This document shows, one piece after another, positions 7,642 through 39,445 of a stretch of DNA of 64,000 nt. The position numbers and the translations under genes are program-made. The notes beneath the pieces are model-generated. The model ran no database searches. It was not told the origin of the DNA and saw nothing but the letters and a program-made list of their open reading frames with translations. Source of the stretch: Micromonosporaceae bacterium (GTDB taxonomy: Bacteria > Actinomycetota > Actinomycetes > Mycobacteriales > Micromonosporaceae); NCBI GenBank assembly GCA_009377645.1, contig WHTQ01000008.1, positions 1 through 64,000 on the forward strand, given 5' to 3'. Each line of letters starts with the position of its first letter. Position 1 is the first letter of the stretch.

Positions 7642-10200
7642 TCAGTCGACCGGTCGGCGCGGCCAGGGCGGCCGCCGGATCGGCACCCCACCGGGCCGGT
7701 CGGCGGCGATCGCCCGCAACCGGGCCAGCAGATCGCTGCGGCTGGCGCAGTCCAGCCGCTGCCGCATCCGGGCCACGTGGTGCTCGACGGTCTTGGCCGA
7801 GATGAACAGGCGGTCGCCGATCTGCTTGTACGTGAGACCGTCGAGCAGGAGGGTGGCTACCTCCTGCTCGCGCTGGCTGAGCTGGCCGGTGGCCGTACCG
7901 GCCGCGCGGTCCCCGCCCTCGCCGCCCGCCGGCTGGGCCGCCCCCTGCTCCGCACCGGCCGGGCGGCCCTGCAGGACCCGGGCGCAGTCCAGCAGCCTGG
8001 TCATGGCCCGGCGGTCGGAGGTCCGGATCGCCGCCTGCCCGGCCAGCCGGGCCGCGTCCCACCACAGGCCCGCGCCGTGCAGCCCCCGGGCCGCGGCCTC
8101 CACCGCGCCCGGGTCCACCGTGCCGCGCAGCACCTCCACCCAGATCTCGGCTCCCGTGGCCACCACCGCCGCGAACCGGGAGTGGTGGGCGGTGGCGGTG
8201 AGGGCCGCCACGTGCTCGTCGGCCACCGCCGGTTCCTCGGCCAGGATGGCGGCGTGCACGCCGCTCCAGCGCAGCGGCGTCGCCCACAGCGGCGGGTCAC
8301 CCAGGCGATCGAGCAGCCGGTACGCCTCCTGCAGGTGCGGGCGCAGCCGGCTCTGCTCACCCAGCCGGGCCGCGGCCACCGCCAGCTCGCCCAGCGGCAG
8401 CAGCGTGAACAGGTCGAACGGGTGCCGGATCACCGCCTCCCGGGCCTGTCCCCAGCCGCGGTGCAGCGCGGCGAGATCGCTGTTGCGGCGGGCGATCCCC
8501 ACGTCCAGGGCGGCGGCGAACAGCAGGTCGCGGGGCTCCAGCCGGGTCGCCCCGGCGACCGCCGCGGCGCGGCGCTGGCCGGCGGCGGCGGTCCGGCCGC
8601 GGGCCATCAGGATCCAGGCCTGCAGCAGCTGGTGCCGCCGGGACATCAGCTGGGCGCCCATCTGGACCGCGATGGCGCGTTCCAGGACGGACTCCCCGAT
8701 CTCCAGCTCGCCGCCGTGCAGGGCTACCAGGGTGGCCAGCGCGGCCGGGCTGTCCGGCAGGAGCACCGCCCGGCTGGCCGGCTCCAGCAGGGCACAGGCC
8801 TGGACCAGCCGGGACAGGGCGACCGTCGGAGAGCCGGAAACGCTCTCCCGCACGCCGCCGGCCATCAGCGCAGCCGCGCTGGCGAGCAGGGTCGGCGGGC
8901 CGTCCGGCAGCGGCTGTTCGGCCCGGTCGGGCTGGCCGGCACCGAGGAAGCCGACGGTCGCGAAGGCGACCGACGAGGCGGTGCCCGACCACCGGTGCAG
9001 CTCGGCGCTGCGGCCAAGCTGGCCGCGGTGCGCGAGGGCGGTCGCGGCCACCGCGGCGCCCGCCGCCCGGTCGCTGGCCGACCCCGCGGCGATCAGCGGG
9101 TCGGCCAGCCGCAACCCCAGGTCGAGATCGCCGGCCAGGGCCGCGGCCAGCGCCCGGCGGGCGGCCGCCGCGGGCCGGCTGGCGGCGGCCGTTTTCAGCA
9201 GCTCCGCCGCCAGCGCCGGCTCCTCGGTCAGCGCCTCGTCCGCGGCGGCCTCGAACACACCGGCCAGCCCGGGGCCGCCGGCACCGACCTCGCGCAACGA
9301 GCGGACCAGTGGCAGCACCCCGCCGCCCCGGGCCCGCTGGAGCTCCGCCAGCCGCTGCCACACGGCGGTCCGGTGCGCCTCCGGGCTGAGCAGCGCGACG
9401 GCCCGCCGGGCGATCGGCACCAGCCGGCCGTCCGGCCCCAGCAGTCCGGTGGCCCGGGCGGCGTCCAGCACCTCGTCGGTCGCCGCCGGCTCCCGGCCCA
9501 GCAGGTCGCCGAGCAGGTCGGCCGTCAGCTCCAGGTCGGTGGCGGCCGCCAGCAGCACCGTGCGCAGGTCTCGATCCAGCTCGTCCAGGTCGGCCCGGAA
9601 CGGGGCCAGCGCCGCCACCGGCAGCTCGCGGCTGGGCCAGTCCAGCACCCGGACCAGCCGGTCGACCAGCCGGGGGACGCCGCCGGTCTGCGCGTGCAGG
9701 AACTCCACCAGCTCCGGGTCGGTGCCAGCCCCGGCTCCGACATCGGCGTCGAGGAAGTCCGCCGTCTGCTGCGCGGTGAACGGGGCGAGCCTCACCGGTG
9801 GTCCGGCCACCCGCAGCAGCTCGGCCAGCGCCGGCGGCCGGGGCCACGGCCGGTACGCGAGGACCAGGCCCAGCCGCCGGGCCTGCATCAGCTGGTGCAG
9901 CTCCCGCAGCCGGTCCTCGCCGAGCAGCTGCGCGTCGTCGGCCAGCACCACGCCGGGGCTGGTGCCGCCGTCCGGTTCCGGGGGTGCGAGCGGGTCGTGC
10001 CAGGCGTCCAGGACCGGGATCCCGGCGCGGCGGTACACCCCACCCAGGTCTTGCAGCAGGACGCTCTTGCCGTAGCCACCCGGCGCCCGGATGCAGACCC
10101 GCCGGGCCACCTGCGGGGCGGCGTCGACGGCGTCCCGCAGCGCCCGGCTCCGCTCGTCCGGCCTGGGCAGGGCCGGCGGCACGCTGGTTCGGAGGCTCAC
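7642..10200 (-). CDS. Large LuxR/LAL-type ATPase transcriptional regulator (IniR-like)
   Basis: 852 residues. An N-terminal P-loop ATPase (Walker A APGGYGKS at about 39-46, Walker B VVLADDAQLL near 84-93) is followed by a long Ala/Arg-rich helical, TPR-like region and a C-terminal LuxR helix-turn-helix (LSQREQEVATLLL...SAKTVEHHVARMRQRL, about 784-840). The size and layout match LAL regulators and the mycobacterial regulator IniR (Rv0339c), which is encoded next to iniBAC. Here it sits beside an Hsp70-like gene and divergent ini-type genes, so it probably controls them. It starts 55 bp after the Hsp70-like gene. Confidence 0.85.
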   Translation of the reverse strand: MSLRTSVPPALPRPDERSRALRDAVDAAPQVARRVCIRAPGGYGKSVLLQDLGGVYRRAGIPVLDAWHDPLAPPEPDGGTSPGVVLADDAQLLGEDRLRELHQLMQARRLGLVLAYRPWPRPPALAELLRVAGPPVRLAPFTAQQTADFLDADVGAGAGTDPELVEFLHAQTGGVPRLVDRLVRVLDWPSRELPVAALAPFRADLDELDRDLRTVLLAAATDLELTADLLGDLLGREPAATDEVLDAARATGLLGPDGRLVPIARRAVALLSPEAHRTAVWQRLAELQRARGGGVLPLVRSLREVGAGGPGLAGVFEAAADEALTEEPALAAELLKTAAASRPAAAARRALAAALAGDLDLGLRLADPLIAAGSASDRAAGAAVAATALAHRGQLGRSAELHRWSGTASSVAFATVGFLGAGQPDRAEQPLPDGPPTLLASAAALMAGGVRESVSGSPTVALSRLVQACALLEPASRAVLLPDSPAALATLVALHGGELEIGESVLERAIAVQMGAQLMSRRHQLLQAWILMARGRTAAAGQRRAAAVAGATRLEPRDLLFAAALDVGIARRNSDLAALHRGWGQAREAVIRHPFDLFTLLPLGELAVAAARLGEQSRLRPHLQEAYRLLDRLGDPPLWATPLRWSGVHAAILAEEPAVADEHVAALTATAHHSRFAAVVATGAEIWVEVLRGTVDPGAVEAAARGLHGAGLWWDAARLAGQAAIRTSDRRAMTRLLDCARVLQGRPAGAEQGAAQPAGGEGGDRAAGTATGQLSQREQEVATLLLDGLTYKQIGDRLFISAKTVEHHVARMRQRLDCASRSDLLARLRAIAADRPGGVPIRRPPWPRRPVD

Positions 10201-10255: not shown

Positions 10256-11536
10256 TCATAGGCGCACTCCGACCAGCCCGAGCCGTCGCTGACCGGCTCG
10301 TGCCCGGGGCAGCTTCAGTGGTGTGATCTTCACCGGTGGGCGGGGCGGCGGCTCCTCGCCCAGCGTCCCGTCCGCCACCTGCTCAGGCGGGTCCGGATCC
10401 GGGTTCGGTGGCCGGCCGGCCGGCGGCCCGGACGCCGATCCCGCCGGGAGCTCCGGAGCTGGGCGCATCGTCGCGATCTTAGCGGCCACCACCGCCGCCC
10501 CGGTCGCGGCGGTGTGCTGCGGCTCCGGCTCGACCGCGATCGGGGAACCGGGCAACCCGGCGGCCACGAGCTCGGCCACCAGCGGCATCTGGGCCGCCCC
10601 GCCAGCCAGCAGGATCCGGTCGGGCGGGTCGCCGCCGCGGCCGCCGGATCGGACGATCCCGATCAGCGCATCGACCGTGACCTGCAGCGCCGGCCGGATC
10701 AGCGCCTCCAGCTCGGTCCGGGAGATCGGCACCTCCACCTGCCCGTACGGAAGTGGCACCAGCACCTCGGTCTCGGTGGCCGCGGACAGCCGCTCCTTGG
10801 CCCGGGCACACTCGCGGCGTAGCCCGAACAGCGCCAGCCTGGCCTGCGGCCCGTCCCGGCGCAGCGTGCGGAACTCGCTGCCGAGCGCGGCCTGGACGTG
10901 GTTGACCAGCGCCTCGTCGACATCCGTCCCGCCGAACGGGTCGACCGAGGCGGCGCTGCCGAGCAGCCGGAAGCCGGCCCGCTCGGCCCAGCCGACCAGC
11001 GACGTCTCGAAGTCGCTGCCGCCCAGCGTGTAGACCGCCAGGGTGTCCCCGGGCCAGCCGTGCTGCCGGTGGCTCTCGGCGACCAGCACCGGCTCGGGCA
11101 GCAGCGAGACACCGGCCAGCCCGATCTCCCGGATCGCCCGCAGCAGCAGCCCGCGCCGGTACCCGCCCCAGCCGGCGGGATGGCTGATCACGACCCGTTC
11201 GGCGGGGGCGCCCTGCTGGAGCTGCACCTGCTCGACGACCCACATCGCCAGCACGGCGGTGAGCGCCTGCGGCGGGCACGGCTCACCCCCGACGACCAGC
11301 GGAACGTCGTCGCCGACCCGCCGGCTGAACCCGCGAGCCACCCGGCTCGCGTCGAGCGGCACCGGATCCGCCACCGTGAGGGCGCGGTCCGGCGCGAGGT
11401 GCAACGCCGACGGCACCGAGTGTGACCGGGCACCCAGGCGGACCACCTCCGGCGCGCCGAACCCACCTCCGCTGAGCTGGGAGATGGCGGCGGTCGTCGT
11501 GGTGCCACCGATGTCGATCCCCAGCACGTACGGCAT
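10256..11536 (-). CDS. Hsp70/DnaK-like ATPase lacking a classical substrate domain
   Basis: 426-residue actin/Hsp70-fold ATPase. Phosphate-1 loop GIDIGGTTTT at residues 6-15, connect/phosphate-2-type sequence GSDFETSLV, and the adenosine loop ILLAGGAAQMPLV. The rest is a Pro-rich tail of about 65 residues with no beta-sandwich peptide-binding domain, so it is not a normal DnaK. ATG at 11536 is chosen because GGAGGAG lies 7-9 nt upstream; longer starts have no ribosome site. It heads the minus-strand operon Hsp70-LuxR-helicase and diverges from the IniB-like gene. A role as an accessory ATPase of the envelope-stress locus is inferred from position. Confidence 0.85.
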   Translation of the reverse strand: MPYVLGIDIGGTTTTAAISQLSGGGFGAPEVVRLGARSHSVPSALHLAPDRALTVADPVPLDASRVARGFSRRVGDDVPLVVGGEPCPPQALTAVLAMWVVEQVQLQQGAPAERVVISHPAGWGGYRRGLLLRAIREIGLAGVSLLPEPVLVAESHRQHGWPGDTLAVYTLGGSDFETSLVGWAERAGFRLLGSAASVDPFGGTDVDEALVNHVQAALGSEFRTLRRDGPQARLALFGLRRECARAKERLSAATETEVLVPLPYGQVEVPISRTELEALIRPALQVTVDALIGIVRSGGRGGDPPDRILLAGGAAQMPLVAELVAAGLPGSPIAVEPEPQHTAATGAAVVAAKIATMRPAPELPAGSASGPPAGRPPNPDPDPPEQVADGTLGEEPPPRPPVKITPLKLPRARAGQRRLGLVGVRL

Positions 11537-11736
11537 CCGGAATGCTCCTCCCAACCGACCCGAACGGGCCACTGTCGTTCGTACCAAAGAACCTGGGGCG
11601 ACCGGGCCACCAATTATTAGCCCACCGATCCCCTAATCCCCTAACGCCGGAGCGCCCCGGCCCCCGGGCGAGCGGCGGACCGAACCCGGGGCGGTCCCCG
11701 ATGCCCAGAGGTCGCGCCGGCCCCTACGGTCTGCGC
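11537..11736. promoter_or_regulatory. Divergent control region between Hsp70-like and IniB-like genes
   Basis: On the plus strand TACGGT at 11725-11730 is 6 nt before the ATG at 11737, fitting a leaderless -10 box; no Shine-Dalgarno is present. On the minus strand GGAGGAG precedes the ATG at 11536. Between them an AT-rich patch (caattattag near 11611) is followed by a direct repeat CCCCTAA at 11630-11636 and 11638-11644, a candidate binding site for the neighbouring LuxR/LAL protein. The operator assignment is inference. Confidence 0.5.
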
Positions 11737-12762
11737 ATGGATTCGACTCAGACGTTGCACGACTTTGTGCTCAACCTGCTGACCAACACCGAGGCGCGCT
11801 CGGCGTTCCAGCTCGACCCGGAGGGCGCCTTGAACGAGGCCGGCCTCGGAGACATCACCGCGGCCGACGTCCAGGACGTGGTCCCGCTGGTCGTCGACTA
11901 CGCGGGCATCCAGGGCGGCGCGGGCCTCGCCGCGGTCGGCACCGACCTCGGCGCCGGTGCCGTCGGCGCCGTCCCGACCGATGTGATCGGCCAGCTGCAG
12001 GCGGTCACGCAGCTCGCCACCGGTGCCCAGTCGCCCAGTCTCGACGGCAACCTGGCCGCCGCGGGAGCGATCGCGGTCGACCCCACCGGCCTCAGCGCGG
12101 TGGCCACCGGCTGGGGGGGCGTGGGTGTCGCGACCGGCCAGTCCGGTATCCAGGCCGAGGTGTACGGGGGCCAGGACGTGGCCGCCACCCTGGACTCCGG
12201 GGTGGTCGAGCAGGTCGCCGCGGACCCGGGCGGCGCCGTGGACTCGGTGCTGGCCGACCCGCTCGGTACGGCCGGTGGCCTGACCGGCGGGACTCCGGTT
12301 GAGGGTGCACTCGGCACGGCCGACGGCCTGACCGGCGACCTGACGGGCGGCCTGACCGGTGGCTTGACTGGCGACCTGACGGGCGGCCTGACCGGCGGAA
12401 CCTCGGGCGATGGCGTGCTCGGCACCGCCGACGGTGTCCTCGGCACCACTGACGGTGTCCTCGGCACCGCTGACGGCCTGCTCGGCGGCGGCGGCGCAAC
12501 CGCCAGCGGCGGAGTGACCTCCCAGCTGGATGACCCGACCGATCTGATCGGCGACGTCACCGGCACCGCGACCGGTGCGCTGGACACCACCGGCGACGGC
12601 TCGTCGCTGGCCGGCAACGTCACCGGCACCGTCGACGGCACGCTGGACGGGGTCGGGGTGGGTGGCCTGCTCGGCGGCGGCGAGGCGAACGGCTCCGGCT
12701 CGGCCGGCGGCTCCACCGACACCGGCGGACTGCTGGACGACGCCACGGACATCCTCTTCTAG
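11737..12762 (+). CDS. IniB N-terminal-domain repeat protein
   Basis: 341 residues. The N-terminal 60 residues (LHDFVLNLLTNTEARSAFQ..DPEGALNEAGLGDITAADVQD) match the conserved N-terminal domain of mycobacterial IniB, product of the first gene of the isoniazid/ethambutol-induced iniBAC operon. The remainder is low-complexity Gly/Thr/Leu/Ala: LTGGLTGDLTGG units near residues 198-222 and GVLGTADGVLGTTDG units near 226-250. No signal peptide or membrane segment is evident. The two dynamin-like genes follow as in iniBAC. Its biochemical function is unknown. Confidence 0.8.
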   Translation: MDSTQTLHDFVLNLLTNTEARSAFQLDPEGALNEAGLGDITAADVQDVVPLVVDYAGIQGGAGLAAVGTDLGAGAVGAVPTDVIGQLQAVTQLATGAQSPSLDGNLAAAGAIAVDPTGLSAVATGWGGVGVATGQSGIQAEVYGGQDVAATLDSGVVEQVAADPGGAVDSVLADPLGTAGGLTGGTPVEGALGTADGLTGDLTGGLTGGLTGDLTGGLTGGTSGDGVLGTADGVLGTTDGVLGTADGLLGGGGATASGGVTSQLDDPTDLIGDVTGTATGALDTTGDGSSLAGNVTGTVDGTLDGVGVGGLLGGGEANGSGSAGGSTDTGGLLDDATDILF

Positions 12763-12869: not shown

Positions 12870-14861
12870 GTGATGGCACCGGTCTGGCTCGACGTGGTAG
12901 ACGAAACGGTCCGAGTGTGCGCGGCGCACGGCCGCACCGACTTGGTCCGGCGGCTCCAGCAGAAGCGGGCGCAGCTGCTCGACTCGAAGCTGCGGGTGCT
13001 GGTGACCGGTGAGCCGAAGCAGGGCAAGAGCCAGCTCGTCAACGCGCTCATCAACGCCGCGGTCTGCCCGGCCGGCGACGGCCCCACCACGTCCGTGCCG
13101 ACCGTGGTGCACCACGCCGAGGTGCCGACCGCCACGCTGGTTCACACCGCTGCCGGGGAGCCGGCCGGGCCGGCCGCGGTGCCGGACCGCACCCCGGTGC
13201 CGGTGGGCGAGCTCGCCAGCCGGATCAACGCCAGCCAGGCCGGCCGGCCGGACGGTGCCGTCCTGCACGCCGAGGTCGGGGTACCGCGCGGGCTGCTCGC
13301 GTCCGGGCTGGTCCTGGTCGACGGTCCGGGTTTCGACGGCGACGGCTCCGGTTTCAACGGTGACGCCCCCGGTTTCAACGGCGGCGCCCCCAACTTCGAC
13401 GGTGACGCCCCCAGCTTCGGCGGCGGCGAGCCGGCGAGCCGGGTGAGTCCGGTCGCGTCGCCGGCCCGGGCCGACGTTGTCGTGCTGGTCTCCGACGCCA
13501 CCCGGGAGCTGTCCGTGGCCGAGGTCGACCTGCTGCTGCGGATGGCGCGGGAGCACCCGCACATCGTGGTGGCGCTCACGAAGATCGACCTGGTGCCGCA
13601 CTGGCGGCTGGTGGCTGACCGCAACCGGCAGCACCTGGCCAGCGCCGGGGTGTCCGCGCCGCTGGTCCCGGTCTCGGCCACCCTGCGGCTGCAGGCGGCG
13701 CAAGCCAACGACCAGGCCATCAACGCGGAGTCCGGCTTTCCCGAGCTGATCGCCCGGTTGATCCGCAGCCACCGCGCGAAGCGGGACGTGCTGGCACCGG
13801 CCACCGTGGGCCTGCTGGTCAGCACGGTCATCCAGCAGCTCGCGACTCCGCTGCGGGCCGGGCTGTCCGCGGCCGGCGCGAGCGAGCCACTGGCGCGGCT
13901 GCACGAAGCCCAGCGGGCGCTCGACCAGCTGCGCCGGTGCTCCACCAGCTGGCAGAACACGCTCGGGGACGAGATGGCCAACCTGCTCTCCGACGTCGAG
14001 TACGACCTGCGGGACCGCACCCGGCAGATCCTGCGGGAGGTGGACGAGGCGTTCGACGCCGCCGACCCGCTGCGCGCCTGGGGGCCGTTCCAGTCCTGGT
14101 TGGAAACGGCCTGTACGGACGCTGCCGAGGCGAACTTCGCCTGGCTGGTCCAGCGGTGCGACTGGATCGTCAACCGGGTCGCGGGCCACCTCGCCGGGTA
14201 CGGGGAGGACGGCGTGCCGGAGTGGAGCGTCGAGACGCCCGGTGCGCTCAGCGAGCGGCTGGCCGCGATCGAGCAGCCCAACGTCGAACGGTTCACCCCG
14301 CTGCAGATGGCCTTCGCCGGACTGCGCGGCTCCTACATCGGCGTGCTGATGTTCGGCCTGGCGACCACGCTGGCCGGGATGCCGCTGATCAACCCGATCT
14401 CGCTCGGCGCCGGTGCGCTGTTCGCGGGCAAGAGCATCCGGGACGAGAGCAAGTCACTGCTCAAGCGCCGCCAGGCCACCGCCAAGTCGGCCGCCCAGCG
14501 CCACGTCGACGACTTCTTCCTGCGGCTCAACAAGGAGTGCAAGGACACCGCCCGGTGGGTGCAGCACCTGCTGCGGGACCACTACACAGCGCTGACCGAG
14601 CAGATCCACGACGGGATCGTCCACTCGGCGCGGACCGCCAAGCAGGCGGCCGACGCGGACGCGGTCGAGCGCGACCAGCGCCACCGTGACATCCAGGCGC
14701 AGATGCGGCGCCTGGCGGTCCTGTACGAGCGCGCCCAGCAGCTGGCCGCGGCTCGGGCCGCACCGACCGTCGGCGGGCCGGCACCGGCGGTCGACGGGCC
14801 GGCACCGACCGTCGCCGGCCCGGCGCCGGTGGCCGCCGACGGGCCGGGGCATCGGGCGTGA
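12870..14861 (+). CDS. Dynamin-like GTPase, IniA-type
   Basis: 663-residue dynamin-superfamily GTPase: P-loop GEPKQGKS at residues 47-54, DGPGF (G3) near 151-155, LTKIDLV (G4) near 236, and a hydrophobic hairpin SYIGVLMFGLATTLAG..INPISLGAGALFAG near 487-520 followed by a helical stretch. IniA and bacterial dynamins remodel the cell membrane; here a role in envelope-stress repair is inferred from the ini-type context. Odd: five 21-nt repeats (about 13327-13431) encode GFNGDAP-type units directly after the G3 motif, and the C-terminus has further PAPTV repeats. GTG 12870 and ATG 12873 are both possible starts. The stop overlaps the next gene. Confidence 0.85.
   Translation: MMAPVWLDVVDETVRVCAAHGRTDLVRRLQQKRAQLLDSKLRVLVTGEPKQGKSQLVNALINAAVCPAGDGPTTSVPTVVHHAEVPTATLVHTAAGEPAGPAAVPDRTPVPVGELASRINASQAGRPDGAVLHAEVGVPRGLLASGLVLVDGPGFDGDGSGFNGDAPGFNGGAPNFDGDAPSFGGGEPASRVSPVASPARADVVVLVSDATRELSVAEVDLLLRMAREHPHIVVALTKIDLVPHWRLVADRNRQHLASAGVSAPLVPVSATLRLQAAQANDQAINAESGFPELIARLIRSHRAKRDVLAPATVGLLVSTVIQQLATPLRAGLSAAGASEPLARLHEAQRALDQLRRCSTSWQNTLGDEMANLLSDVEYDLRDRTRQILREVDEAFDAADPLRAWGPFQSWLETACTDAAEANFAWLVQRCDWIVNRVAGHLAGYGEDGVPEWSVETPGALSERLAAIEQPNVERFTPLQMAFAGLRGSYIGVLMFGLATTLAGMPLINPISLGAGALFAGKSIRDESKSLLKRRQATAKSAAQRHVDDFFLRLNKECKDTARWVQHLLRDHYTALTEQIHDGIVHSARTAKQAADADAVERDQRHRDIQAQMRRLAVLYERAQQLAAARAAPTVGGPAPAVDGPAPTVAGPAPVAADGPGHRA
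13327..13431 (+). repeat. 21-nt tandem repeats inside the IniA-type gene
   Basis: About five consecutive 21-nt units of the form ggtttcaacggtgacgcccc, each encoding a variant of G-F-N/D-G-D/G-A/G-P/S. They begin at the DGPGF motif. The whole array keeps the reading frame, so array length can change without breaking the gene. Confidence 0.8.
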
Positions 14862-16315
14862 CCGGTAGCCCGCCGCTCGGGCAGTCGGTTCGGGCGCTGC
14901 TGACCAACGCCCTGGAGCTGTACCACGACAGCCCGGCGACGGCCGGCCAGCTGCACCACCAGCTGAGCCGGTTCGAGGAGCCGCTGCGGGTCGCGGTGAC
15001 CGGTCCCTGGCGGTCGGGGAAGTCGACGTTGGTCAACGCGTTAATGGGCGAGCAGGTCGCCCCGGTCGAGGTCCCGGACGGCCAGCAGGTGTTCACCTGG
15101 TACCAGGACGGATCCGCCCCGCACGCCGTCGCCTACCCGGCCGGGTACGAGCTGCCGGTCTCCCGTACCGCCGACGGGATGTCGGTCGACGTCCGGCGGT
15201 GGCAGCCGGCGCCGGTCAACGACTTGGTGGTCACCTGGCCCACCCGGACCCTGCGCCATACGACCCTGGTGGACACCCCCGCCGTTCCGGACGCCGGGGT
15301 CGAGGCTCCCCCGACCGCCGTCGCCGACATGATCCTGCGCGACGTCGACGTCGTGCTCTACCTCACCCGGGACGCGCGCGACACCGATCTGCACTTCCTG
15401 CAGCGGGCTCAGGCGGGGCTGGTTGCCCGGGCGGCACCGGTCAACCTGCTGCTGGTGCTGTCCCGGGCGGACGAGCTCGGTGGCGGTCGGCTGGATGCGC
15501 TGATCGCGGCCCGGCAGCTGGCCCGGCGCCAGCACCGCGACCCGCGGGTGGGCTCGCTGTGTCTCGGCGTGGTCGCCGTGAGTGGTCTGGTCGCGCTCGC
15601 CGGCCGGGTGCTGGGGGAGCCGGACTTCGCCGCGCTGGCCACGCTCGCCGCCACCCCCCGGGCCGAGCTGGACGGCTTCCTGCTGTCCACCGACCGGTTC
15701 ATCGGGCAGCAGTTCCCGGCGCCGGTGGCGGTCGAGGCCCGCCGGGCCCTGCTGGACCGGCTGGGCATCTTCGGCGTACGGCTGGCGGTGACGTTGATCC
15801 GGACCGGCAGCGACAGCCGGGCCGCGCTCGCCGCGGAGCTGGTCCGGCGCAGCGGGCTGACCGACCTCCGGGAGGCGGTCGCCCGCTGTTTCGTGGACCG
15901 GCGGGAGGTGCTCCAGGCCCGGTCCGCCCTGGCGGCGCTGGAGTCGATCCTGCACACCGACCCCCGGCCGGGGGTGGAGCGGCTGTCCGCCGGCCTGGAG
16001 CACGTCCTCACCACCAGCCACGACCTGCGGGAGCTGCGCCTGCTGGCCTGGCTGCGGCTGCACCGGGTCGGGTTCGACGGCGACCTGGCCGCGGAGGCCC
16101 GGCGACTGGTCGGCGAGAACGGCACCGGGGTGGCGGCTCGGCTGGGCGTCGACCGCCCCACCACCGCCGAGCTGTGGCGGCTGAGCGCCGACGCGCTGGC
16201 CCGGTGGCGGGAGCTGGCCGACGACCCGGTGCTGCGCCTGGACCAGCGGCGGGCGGCCCAGGTGGTGGTCCGCAGCTGCGAGGGGATCCAGGCCCGGCTG
16301 CGGCACCGGCCGTAG
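14858..16315 (+). CDS. Dynamin-like GTPase, IniC-type
   Basis: 485-residue GTPase with P-loop TGPWRSGKST at about 48-57, G3 DTPAV near 146, and G4-like SRADELGG near 203. It lacks the long hydrophobic insertion of the first GTPase, as IniC differs from IniA. GTG at 14858 overlaps the previous stop by 4 bp (GTGA), implying coupled translation and probably a partner role. In the mycobacterial locus iniC likewise follows iniA. Function in the membrane is by family analogy. Confidence 0.82.
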   Translation: MTGSPPLGQSVRALLTNALELYHDSPATAGQLHHQLSRFEEPLRVAVTGPWRSGKSTLVNALMGEQVAPVEVPDGQQVFTWYQDGSAPHAVAYPAGYELPVSRTADGMSVDVRRWQPAPVNDLVVTWPTRTLRHTTLVDTPAVPDAGVEAPPTAVADMILRDVDVVLYLTRDARDTDLHFLQRAQAGLVARAAPVNLLLVLSRADELGGGRLDALIAARQLARRQHRDPRVGSLCLGVVAVSGLVALAGRVLGEPDFAALATLAATPRAELDGFLLSTDRFIGQQFPAPVAVEARRALLDRLGIFGVRLAVTLIRTGSDSRAALAAELVRRSGLTDLREAVARCFVDRREVLQARSALAALESILHTDPRPGVERLSAGLEHVLTTSHDLRELRLLAWLRLHRVGFDGDLAAEARRLVGENGTGVAARLGVDRPTTAELWRLSADALARWRELADDPVLRLDQRRAAQVVVRSCEGIQARLRHRP

Positions 16316-38299: not shown

Positions 38300-39445
38300 T
38301 CAGCCCGGTCGCCCGAAGCTGTGGATCGGGTTCGAGTCCATGGCGGTGACGTGCACGCTGGACGTGGGGTTCGGCGCGTGCACGATCGAGCCGTCGCCGA
38401 TGTACATCCCGACATGGCTTAGATCGCTGTAGTAGAAGACCAGGTCACCGGGGCGAAGGTTGCTCCGTTCCACGTACGGCATGACGGACCGCTGCTGAGC
38501 GGCGTTGTGGGGCAGGCTCACGCCGCCCTGCTCCCAGGCGGCCATGGTCAAGCCGGAACAGTCGTACGCGTCGGGACCGGCCGCTCCCCATTCGTACGAC
38601 TTGCCGACCTGCGCGCAGGCGAAGTCGAGGGCCGCGTCTGCCCCACCGCCCGGGTAGCTGACCGGGCACCCCGAGCTCGGTCCGCTGGAGCCGCTGTCGC
38701 TCTCCTCGGCTTCCGCTTCGGCCTCCGCTTCGGCCTCCGCCTCAGCTGCTGCCTCGGCTTCCGCTTCCGCCGCTGCCTCGGCCGCTGCCGCTGCTTCCGC
38801 CTCGGCCGCGGCGCGCTCCTCCGCGAGCAGCTCCTCATGGAGCCCTTCCAGCTCGTCGATCTCTACGTCGATCTCGTCGGCCCGCCGCGCCAGGTCCGTC
38901 TCCATCTCGGTGAGGTCGTCGATGAGCCCATCGAGCTCGGCCTGTTGGATCTGGTAGTCCGCCTTGACCGCGACCGCTCGGTTGATCTTCTCCTGCTGGG
39001 TCTTGGTGAACTGGTCCAGCATTGCCAGCTGGTCGGCGAGGGCGAATGGCGATCCGGTGGTGAGTAGCGCCCGCAGGGCGGATATGTTGCCGCCCTTGAA
39101 GCTGTACGCGGCGACGTCGGCGACGTCGGCCTGCGCCAGCTCCACCTGCCGCTCCAGCGGCCCGATCTTCGCGGCCAGCGCATCGGCTGCCTTCTGGTTA
39201 TCCTTCAGCTCCAGCCGGGTGGCGTTGTGCTCCTCGATGATCGGCTCCAGCTCACGCCATTTCTCGTCGATCTGCGCCTTGACCTCCTCCGAGGTCCCCT
39301 GGGCAGCAGCGGCACCGGGGGTGAGGAGCACCGCCGGAGCAGTGACCACCATGAACAGTATGGCAGCGAGGGCGAACCGCCCTACCCTGGACCGGGCGCT
39401 CAGCCGGGCAGGCCTCGGCTGACGCTCCTGAGTGGTATGAGTCAC
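38300..39445 (-). CDS. Secreted NlpC/P60 peptidoglycan hydrolase
   Basis: 381 residues. N-terminal signal peptide (FALAAILFMVVTAPAVLL..GAAAAQG), coiled-coil domain (about residues 45-200), a long EAEAEAAAEA linker, then a C-terminal NlpC/P60 domain with Cys296 (YDCSGLT), His344 (DLSHVGMYIG) and His356 (IVHAPN) as the catalytic set. Such enzymes cut gamma-D-Glu-meso-DAP bonds in cell-wall peptides (RipA/RpfA-associated types). GTG 39445 is chosen because the signal peptide follows at once and AGAGGGG lies about 8 nt before it. Expression is probably set by the c-di-AMP riboswitch upstream. Confidence 0.92.
   Translation of the reverse strand: MTHTTQERQPRPARLSARSRVGRFALAAILFMVVTAPAVLLTPGAAAAQGTSEEVKAQIDEKWRELEPIIEEHNATRLELKDNQKAADALAAKIGPLERQVELAQADVADVAAYSFKGGNISALRALLTTGSPFALADQLAMLDQFTKTQQEKINRAVAVKADYQIQQAELDGLIDDLTEMETDLARRADEIDVEIDELEGLHEELLAEERAAAEAEAAAAAEAAAEAEAEAAAEAEAEAEAEAEAEESDSGSSGPSSGCPVSYPGGGADAALDFACAQVGKSYEWGAAGPDAYDCSGLTMAAWEQGGVSLPHNAAQQRSVMPYVERSNLRPGDLVFYYSDLSHVGMYIGDGSIVHAPNPTSSVHVTAMDSNPIHSFGRPG

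Follow-up and report, generated by a model that had tools for sequence, protein, structure and literature searches.

The mycobacterial iniBAC operon is controlled by IniR, a regulator with a LuxR-like DNA-binding end (PMC5760070). For IniA of M. smegmatis structures are available (PDB 6j72/6j73), and in this protein the substitution R63A drastically reduced hydrolysis (PMC6715688). Further described systems are Nostoc BDLP (PDB 2j68/2j69) and Campylobacter Cj-DLP1/2 (PDB 5owv/5oxf), the latter being encoded by an adjacent dynamin gene pair (PMC6104087).

The locus described here lies in a stretch of 64,000 nucleotides that was analysed as a whole (the window) and contains an iniA-like gene with a 21-nt tandem array. 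Its product is like M. smegmatis IniA in the P-loop, the G2 threonine, the G3 aspartate and G4, and the gene order iniB-iniA-iniC is the same. However, M. smegmatis IniA has a classical switch II (DTPGVGG...) without insert, unlike the window protein, in which Pro67 aligns with R63. Arginine is found at that position in none of the 136 members of the subfamily (counted as such if their C-terminal part is 43% or more identical to that of the window), but it is just as scarce in the distant rows, with Arg in 1/16 and proline in 14/16, so that the position fails to separate the groups. Nostoc BDLP, likewise a bacterial dynamin-like protein, is matched in sequence (E 4e-5) and ranks fourth in Foldseek, yet it is only remotely related (16% identical when aligned by structure). 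The Campylobacter pair resembles iniA plus iniC in its arrangement, whereas identity to the window protein is only 11-15%.

Bacterial variable-number tandem repeats are short in-frame arrays inside genes. The window array is in-frame and intragenic too, but its units are impure and lie in a catalytic domain, and length polymorphism was not observed. The open-licence literature on switch II and intragenic tandem repeats in GTPases yielded matches only to Entamoeba AIG1 and fungal adhesins; in the same literature, no report was found on in-frame intragenic tandem repeats of high-GC actinobacteria, nor on pseudoGTPases and the G3 motif of dynamins.

The iniA-like gene and its neighbours

The gene is flanked as follows:

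7642 to 10200, minus strand: LuxR-type regulator of 852 aa, occupying an iniR-like position
10256 to 11587, minus strand: Hsp70-like gene, which adjoins the cluster in related loci too
11737 to 12762, plus strand: iniB-like gene (IniB_NTERM, NF038175, E 3e-19)
12870 to 14861, plus strand: iniA-like bacterial dynamin of 663 aa (GTG as start codon, or equally well the ATG at 12873)
14858 to 16315, plus strand: iniC-like partner dynamin, overlapping the iniA end by 4 bases (G3 = DTPA)

Judged by its sequence, the window gene is an IniA-type bacterial dynamin-like protein gene. The reading frame is intact over 663 aa, Dynamin_N (Pfam PF00350) is found with E 8.1e-11, and the best solved relative in phmmer is IniA of M. 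smegmatis (6j72_A, E 1.1e-81, query 6-628 of 663); the latter two matches bear out the first-pass annotation in calling it a dynamin. The GTPase residues S54, T74 (the G2 threonine), D151, K238 and D240 are present, as are D, P and G of G3 and both P-loop lysines, and the aligned relatives nearest to it are 68% identical overall. DGPG at G3, on the other hand, occurs in the window protein only, among 153 sequences.

From gene content and order, the cluster would read iniR-like/hsp70-like/iniB/iniA/iniC. Among the best 80 of 116 relatives an IniC neighbour was found in 80, IniB in 77, the Hsp70-like protein in 76 and the LuxR-type regulator in 74, these counts being lower bounds where contig ends cut the loci. 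Of the three genomes of the genus, those of the two congeners (G001 and G002, loci L016 and L018) have as their only match an IniA of 32-33% identity. Close to this IniA they carry a 37% identical LuxR-type regulator, and these low identities suggest that two iniBAC-like types exist within the genus. The G3 of the iniC-like partner was also tabulated (L034-L113, n = 80) and reads DTPA in 45, DTPS in 12, DTPP in 9 and DTPG in 6, the rest being other or unaligned.

Register, divergence and setting of the array

The motifs and the array are placed as follows:

13008 to 13031, plus strand: G1/P-loop GEPKQGKS, residues 47-54
13320 to 13331, plus strand: G3 DGPG (D151-G152-P153-G154), at the second residue of which unit 1 starts
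13323 to 13427, plus strand: five-unit 21-nt array (TRF, codon register, codon permutation)
13344 to 13427, plus strand: four extra units, 28 residues (159-186), from homologue spacing and pLDDT <50 at 159-190
13578 to 13589, plus strand: G4 TKID, residues 237-240

Five in-frame 21-nt units encode GPGFDGD, GSGFNGD, APGFNGG, APNFDGD and APSFGGG (residues 152-186). TRF reports 13329-13425 with period 21, 4.6 copies and a score of 103, or a score of 117 as period 42. The five-unit array that had been noticed in the dynamin gene on first reading is thus confirmed by TRF, codon register and permutation, although its borders (given then as 13327-13431) were four bases off the codon register. The 35 residues comprise 13 Gly, 5 Asp, 5 Phe, 4 Pro, 3 Asn, 3 Ala and 2 Ser, which makes the stretch Gly/Asp/Phe-rich and not Gly/Asn/Pro-rich, as it had been described. 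Unit 1 (13323-13343) holds the GPG of DGPG and is the native G3 segment, which reads DTPGADGD in several near relatives, and therefore only four units (28 residues) are extra, instead of some 35 residues added directly after DGPGF.

The units are no longer alike. Neighbouring units have 16, 17, 15 and 17 of 21 bases in common, units two apart 15-17 and units three or four apart 13-14, a gradient that fits ladder-like past growth followed by drift. Near-identical, readily slipping units, as expected of a contingency repeat, were not found, the pairwise similarity being 13-17 of 21 bases, and the earlier description of the repeat as expanding is not borne out by these units. Interrupted arrays slip less than pure arrays. 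Each unit has one phenylalanine, encoded by TTC in all five, and at position six a glycine is kept throughout despite synonymous codon changes, so that at the sequence level some constraint on these two residues could exist. Apart from this, the differences between units are distributed evenly over the three codon positions (16, 20 and 20) and are too few for a selection test.

A chance origin of the array is excluded by codon permutation and Markov resampling. In the 84-base stretch from 13319, 67 bases equal the base 21 further on, compared to a maximum of 51/84 in 2000 codon-order permutations of the gene, 0/2000 of which match the array. No other lag from 12 to 45 exceeds this value over 84 bases at any place on the plus strand of the window, and 30 first-order Markov resamplings of the window reached a best TRF score of 80 versus the 117 observed. 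Tandem arrays themselves are nothing special in this genome: a sample of 261,778 bases gave 84 non-overlapping ones by TRF (score of at least 50), with period 21 as the commonest (15/84), and the unusual feature is the array's place. A source of the insert elsewhere in the genome was not found: the 105 bases have no comparable second copy there, the next best match (E 0.003) covering 36 of them.

Loop length and switch II among homologues

The spacing between the G3 aspartate and the aspartate that opens the next strand amounts to 51 for the window protein versus 13-30 in 152 other distinct homologues, of which 105 have the commonest spacing of 23. In fact, 51 equals 23 + 4 × 7, i.e. exactly four heptads over the commonest spacing, and none of the 152 has an intermediate spacing between 30 and 51. 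The near relatives L034, L035 and L036 have DTPGADGD at the site of unit 1, followed by a short stretch ending in RAD, while L002 (with the highest C-terminal identity) has DTPGTDER there and is shorter as well. None of the relatives examined carries the array, so that this genome differs from them, and graded variation in repeat number was not seen.

The spacing set was obtained from 178 loci, of which 153 were kept (7 did not have both matched parts, 2 were too short and 16 were duplicates); L139-L169, collected for other questions, had been left out beforehand, and L022 and L207 end without Asp at the aligned column. For a further sequence set 116 of 131 loci were kept. Homologue matches occur in 175 of 354 family genomes; the comparison covers a part of these, most of those absent from it coming from the largest genus (g4). 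Some loci of family members encode the same protein as named Micromonosporaceae records (L003 and Micromonospora pattaloongensis, L007 and Planosporangium mesophilum, for example), which places the window's genome in this family.

G3 and switch II are among the most conserved parts of GTPases. In this subfamily the pattern is different. At an overall identity of 65-75%, the mean identity within switch II is 0.43 in the subfamily (464 pairs) versus 0.80 in classical IniA (5 pairs); the corresponding values are 0.28 (1025 pairs) versus 0.76 (4 pairs) in the overall bin 0.55-0.65, and 0.20 (338 pairs) versus 0.52 (11 pairs) in the bin 0.35-0.45. This comparison sets 105 subfamily rows against 7 hand-picked classical IniA sequences (3 of 10 distant rows, L021, L023 and L025, having been left out), so that the control is small and the pairs are non-independent. 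The G3 glycine is absent (with Ala or Pro instead) in 41/136 subfamily members versus 0/16 distant rows, and the G3 aspartate is replaced by glutamate in 3/136 versus 0/16. On a FastTree tree the state of the G3 glycine changes at least nine times, the branches being long and gain indistinguishable from loss. The P-loop GxxxxGKS, by comparison, is intact in 129/136 members, the G2 threonine is present in 120/136 and the G4 aspartate in 136/136; at the column of the IniA lysine K46, just 66/136 have Lys or Arg.

It seems from these alignments that switch II is often relaxed in this IniA subfamily, and that the erosion is non-uniform, many members from Lentzea and Saccharothrix having a near-classical switch II (e.g. 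DTPGVGDTRSAHTASTFATLMQAD). An effect of the insert on GTP hydrolysis had been expected on first reading. The location at switch II on which this expectation was built holds, since the insert begins four residues past the G3 glycine, but the constrained switch II that it assumed is poorly conserved in the subfamily. With spacings of 13-51, loss of the G3 glycine and an intact P-loop, the subfamily forms a natural series on the need of bacterial dynamins for GTP hydrolysis, and the window protein is the long extreme of its switch II spacings. Two side observations concern the same region: the IniA homologues L177, L180 and L189, from three members of the family, combine the G3 change from Asp to Glu with loss of the glycine (EVPA, EAPA), and L073, L124, L071 and L042 carry long low-complexity inserts between G2 and the G3 strand. 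Some of these inserts are tandem, that of L073 consisting of EERRRDP heptads with a TRF score of 100 (TRF was run on the homologue genes of 116 rows).

Modelling with and without the insert, as had been proposed, was done on the window protein and on L035, a natural homologue lacking it; the insert falls into the loop that joins the G3 strand to the following one, at the switch. The AlphaFold model of the window protein has a mean pLDDT of 81.9 and a pTM of 0.61; the pLDDT falls below 50 at residues 159-190, which comprise the four extra units and four further residues, against averages of 95 in the ten-residue blocks 141-150 and 201-210. The insert-free homologue L035 (mean pLDDT 79.3) also has a pLDDT below 50 in its corresponding loop (144-156), and for that reason the models suggest that the insert lengthens an already low-confidence loop at the switch. 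Low AlphaFold confidence is a proxy for disorder only, the models are based on alignments of 36-37 sequences, and they are silent on catalysis. The alignments comprised 36 and 35 of 78 long-enough loci (from the best 80 of 116 relatives) plus the window, L071 and L073 being omitted from both and L042 from the second because of long inserts elsewhere. Both models find their best structural match in IniA of M. smegmatis; the dynamin fold with helical bundles is recovered (Foldseek, 6j72, E 1.5e-27), and VIA to M. smegmatis IniA gives Z 28.4 with an rmsd of 44.7 over 505 residues, i.e. a flexed multidomain match.

Origin and role of the insert

The array is probably a lineage-specific in-frame tandem duplication that was tolerated in the eroding switch II of an IniA-type dynamin. 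The 21 bases encoding the G3 end (GPGFDGD) would have been duplicated in tandem to give four Gly/Asp/Phe-rich heptads in switch II, and since this G+C-rich genome has many arrays of the kind, slippage or unequal exchange, followed by drift, is the probable route. Tolerance would be explained by the loop that leads from the G3 strand to the following one, which in this part of the subfamily seems to be weakly constrained and probably disordered. The nucleotide-binding motifs would be kept while G3 and switch II decay, and the window protein has most likely retained GTP binding and a role, together with IniC, on membranes under envelope stress, its hydrolysis presumably being slow or relaxed, as may be the case in its relatives. 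The repeat would then hang flexibly from the nucleotide-binding face and be no length-tuned regulator. Against mere tolerance, a spacing of 51 is extreme where all others are 30 or less, so that selection could have been involved.

The main alternatives to a tolerated duplication are a module of phenylalanine stickers and real variation between strains. In the former, which is rather unlikely, the heptads would be a selected interaction module in which five Phe at seven-residue spacing act as weak stickers at the face of the G domain, with Gly/Asp-rich spacers, and promote contacts with IniC, another IniA or other partners. It would account for a phenylalanine kept in 5/5 units while other positions changed and for the position-six glycine kept through synonymous changes, and by analogy it is in line with the Campylobacter dynamin pair, where heterotypic assembly triggers GTPase activity (PMC6104087). 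The phenylalanines may, however, merely descend from the founding copy; moreover, the array is known from one genome, a selection test would need more than five units, and the substitutions have no third-position bias. A further-reaching version, in which G3 and switch II are being dismantled with GTP binding kept in parts of this actinobacterial IniA/IniC lineage, and a sticker module copied from the G3 motif replaced the vacated switch in the window's species, is unlikely. If true, these dynamins would read GTP binding without hydrolysis, and a catalytic switch would have become an assembly element. As for variation between strains, the model of the first-pass annotation, a length-variable element at switch II would tune GTP hydrolysis, for which the position of the array, frame-preserving multiples of seven residues and the abundance of tandem arrays in the genome can be cited. 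With units only 13-17 of 21 bases alike, lengths between 30 and 51 missing from the 152 other homologues, and a switch II that is itself poorly conserved, it is very improbable.

Were the gene heading for loss, the array could be neutral debris in a non-functional dynamin, in keeping with the sole DGPG at G3, the relaxed switch II of the subfamily and the divergent IniA of the two congeners; this is quite improbable in view of an intact frame of 663 aa, the presence of P-loop, G2 threonine, G3 aspartate and G4, the 68% identity shared overall with its closest aligned relatives, and iniB- and iniC-like neighbours as in related loci. An assembly artefact is extremely improbable: the draft genome is fragmented (217 contigs) and short arrays can misassemble, but all five units differ without disturbing the frame, the commonest spacing is exceeded by precisely four heptads, and the genome has no comparable second copy.

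Apart from the array at the switch, other periodicities were observed in the window. The iniA-like gene carries another array near its end:

14754 to 14838, plus strand: second 21-nt array (TRF), Ala/Pro-rich C-terminal tail of heptads, APTVGGPAPAVDGPAPTVAGPAP

This tail is the longest among 106 rows (39 residues from the aligned column versus 4-28). The iniB-like gene has 12/36-nt and 21-nt arrays at 12320-12486, and 4 of the 6 non-overlapping arrays of score 100 or more in the window lie within the iniB/iniA operon. The second strongest periodicity of the window is found at 38704-38824, where 12-, 18-, 24- and 36-nt arrays overlap.
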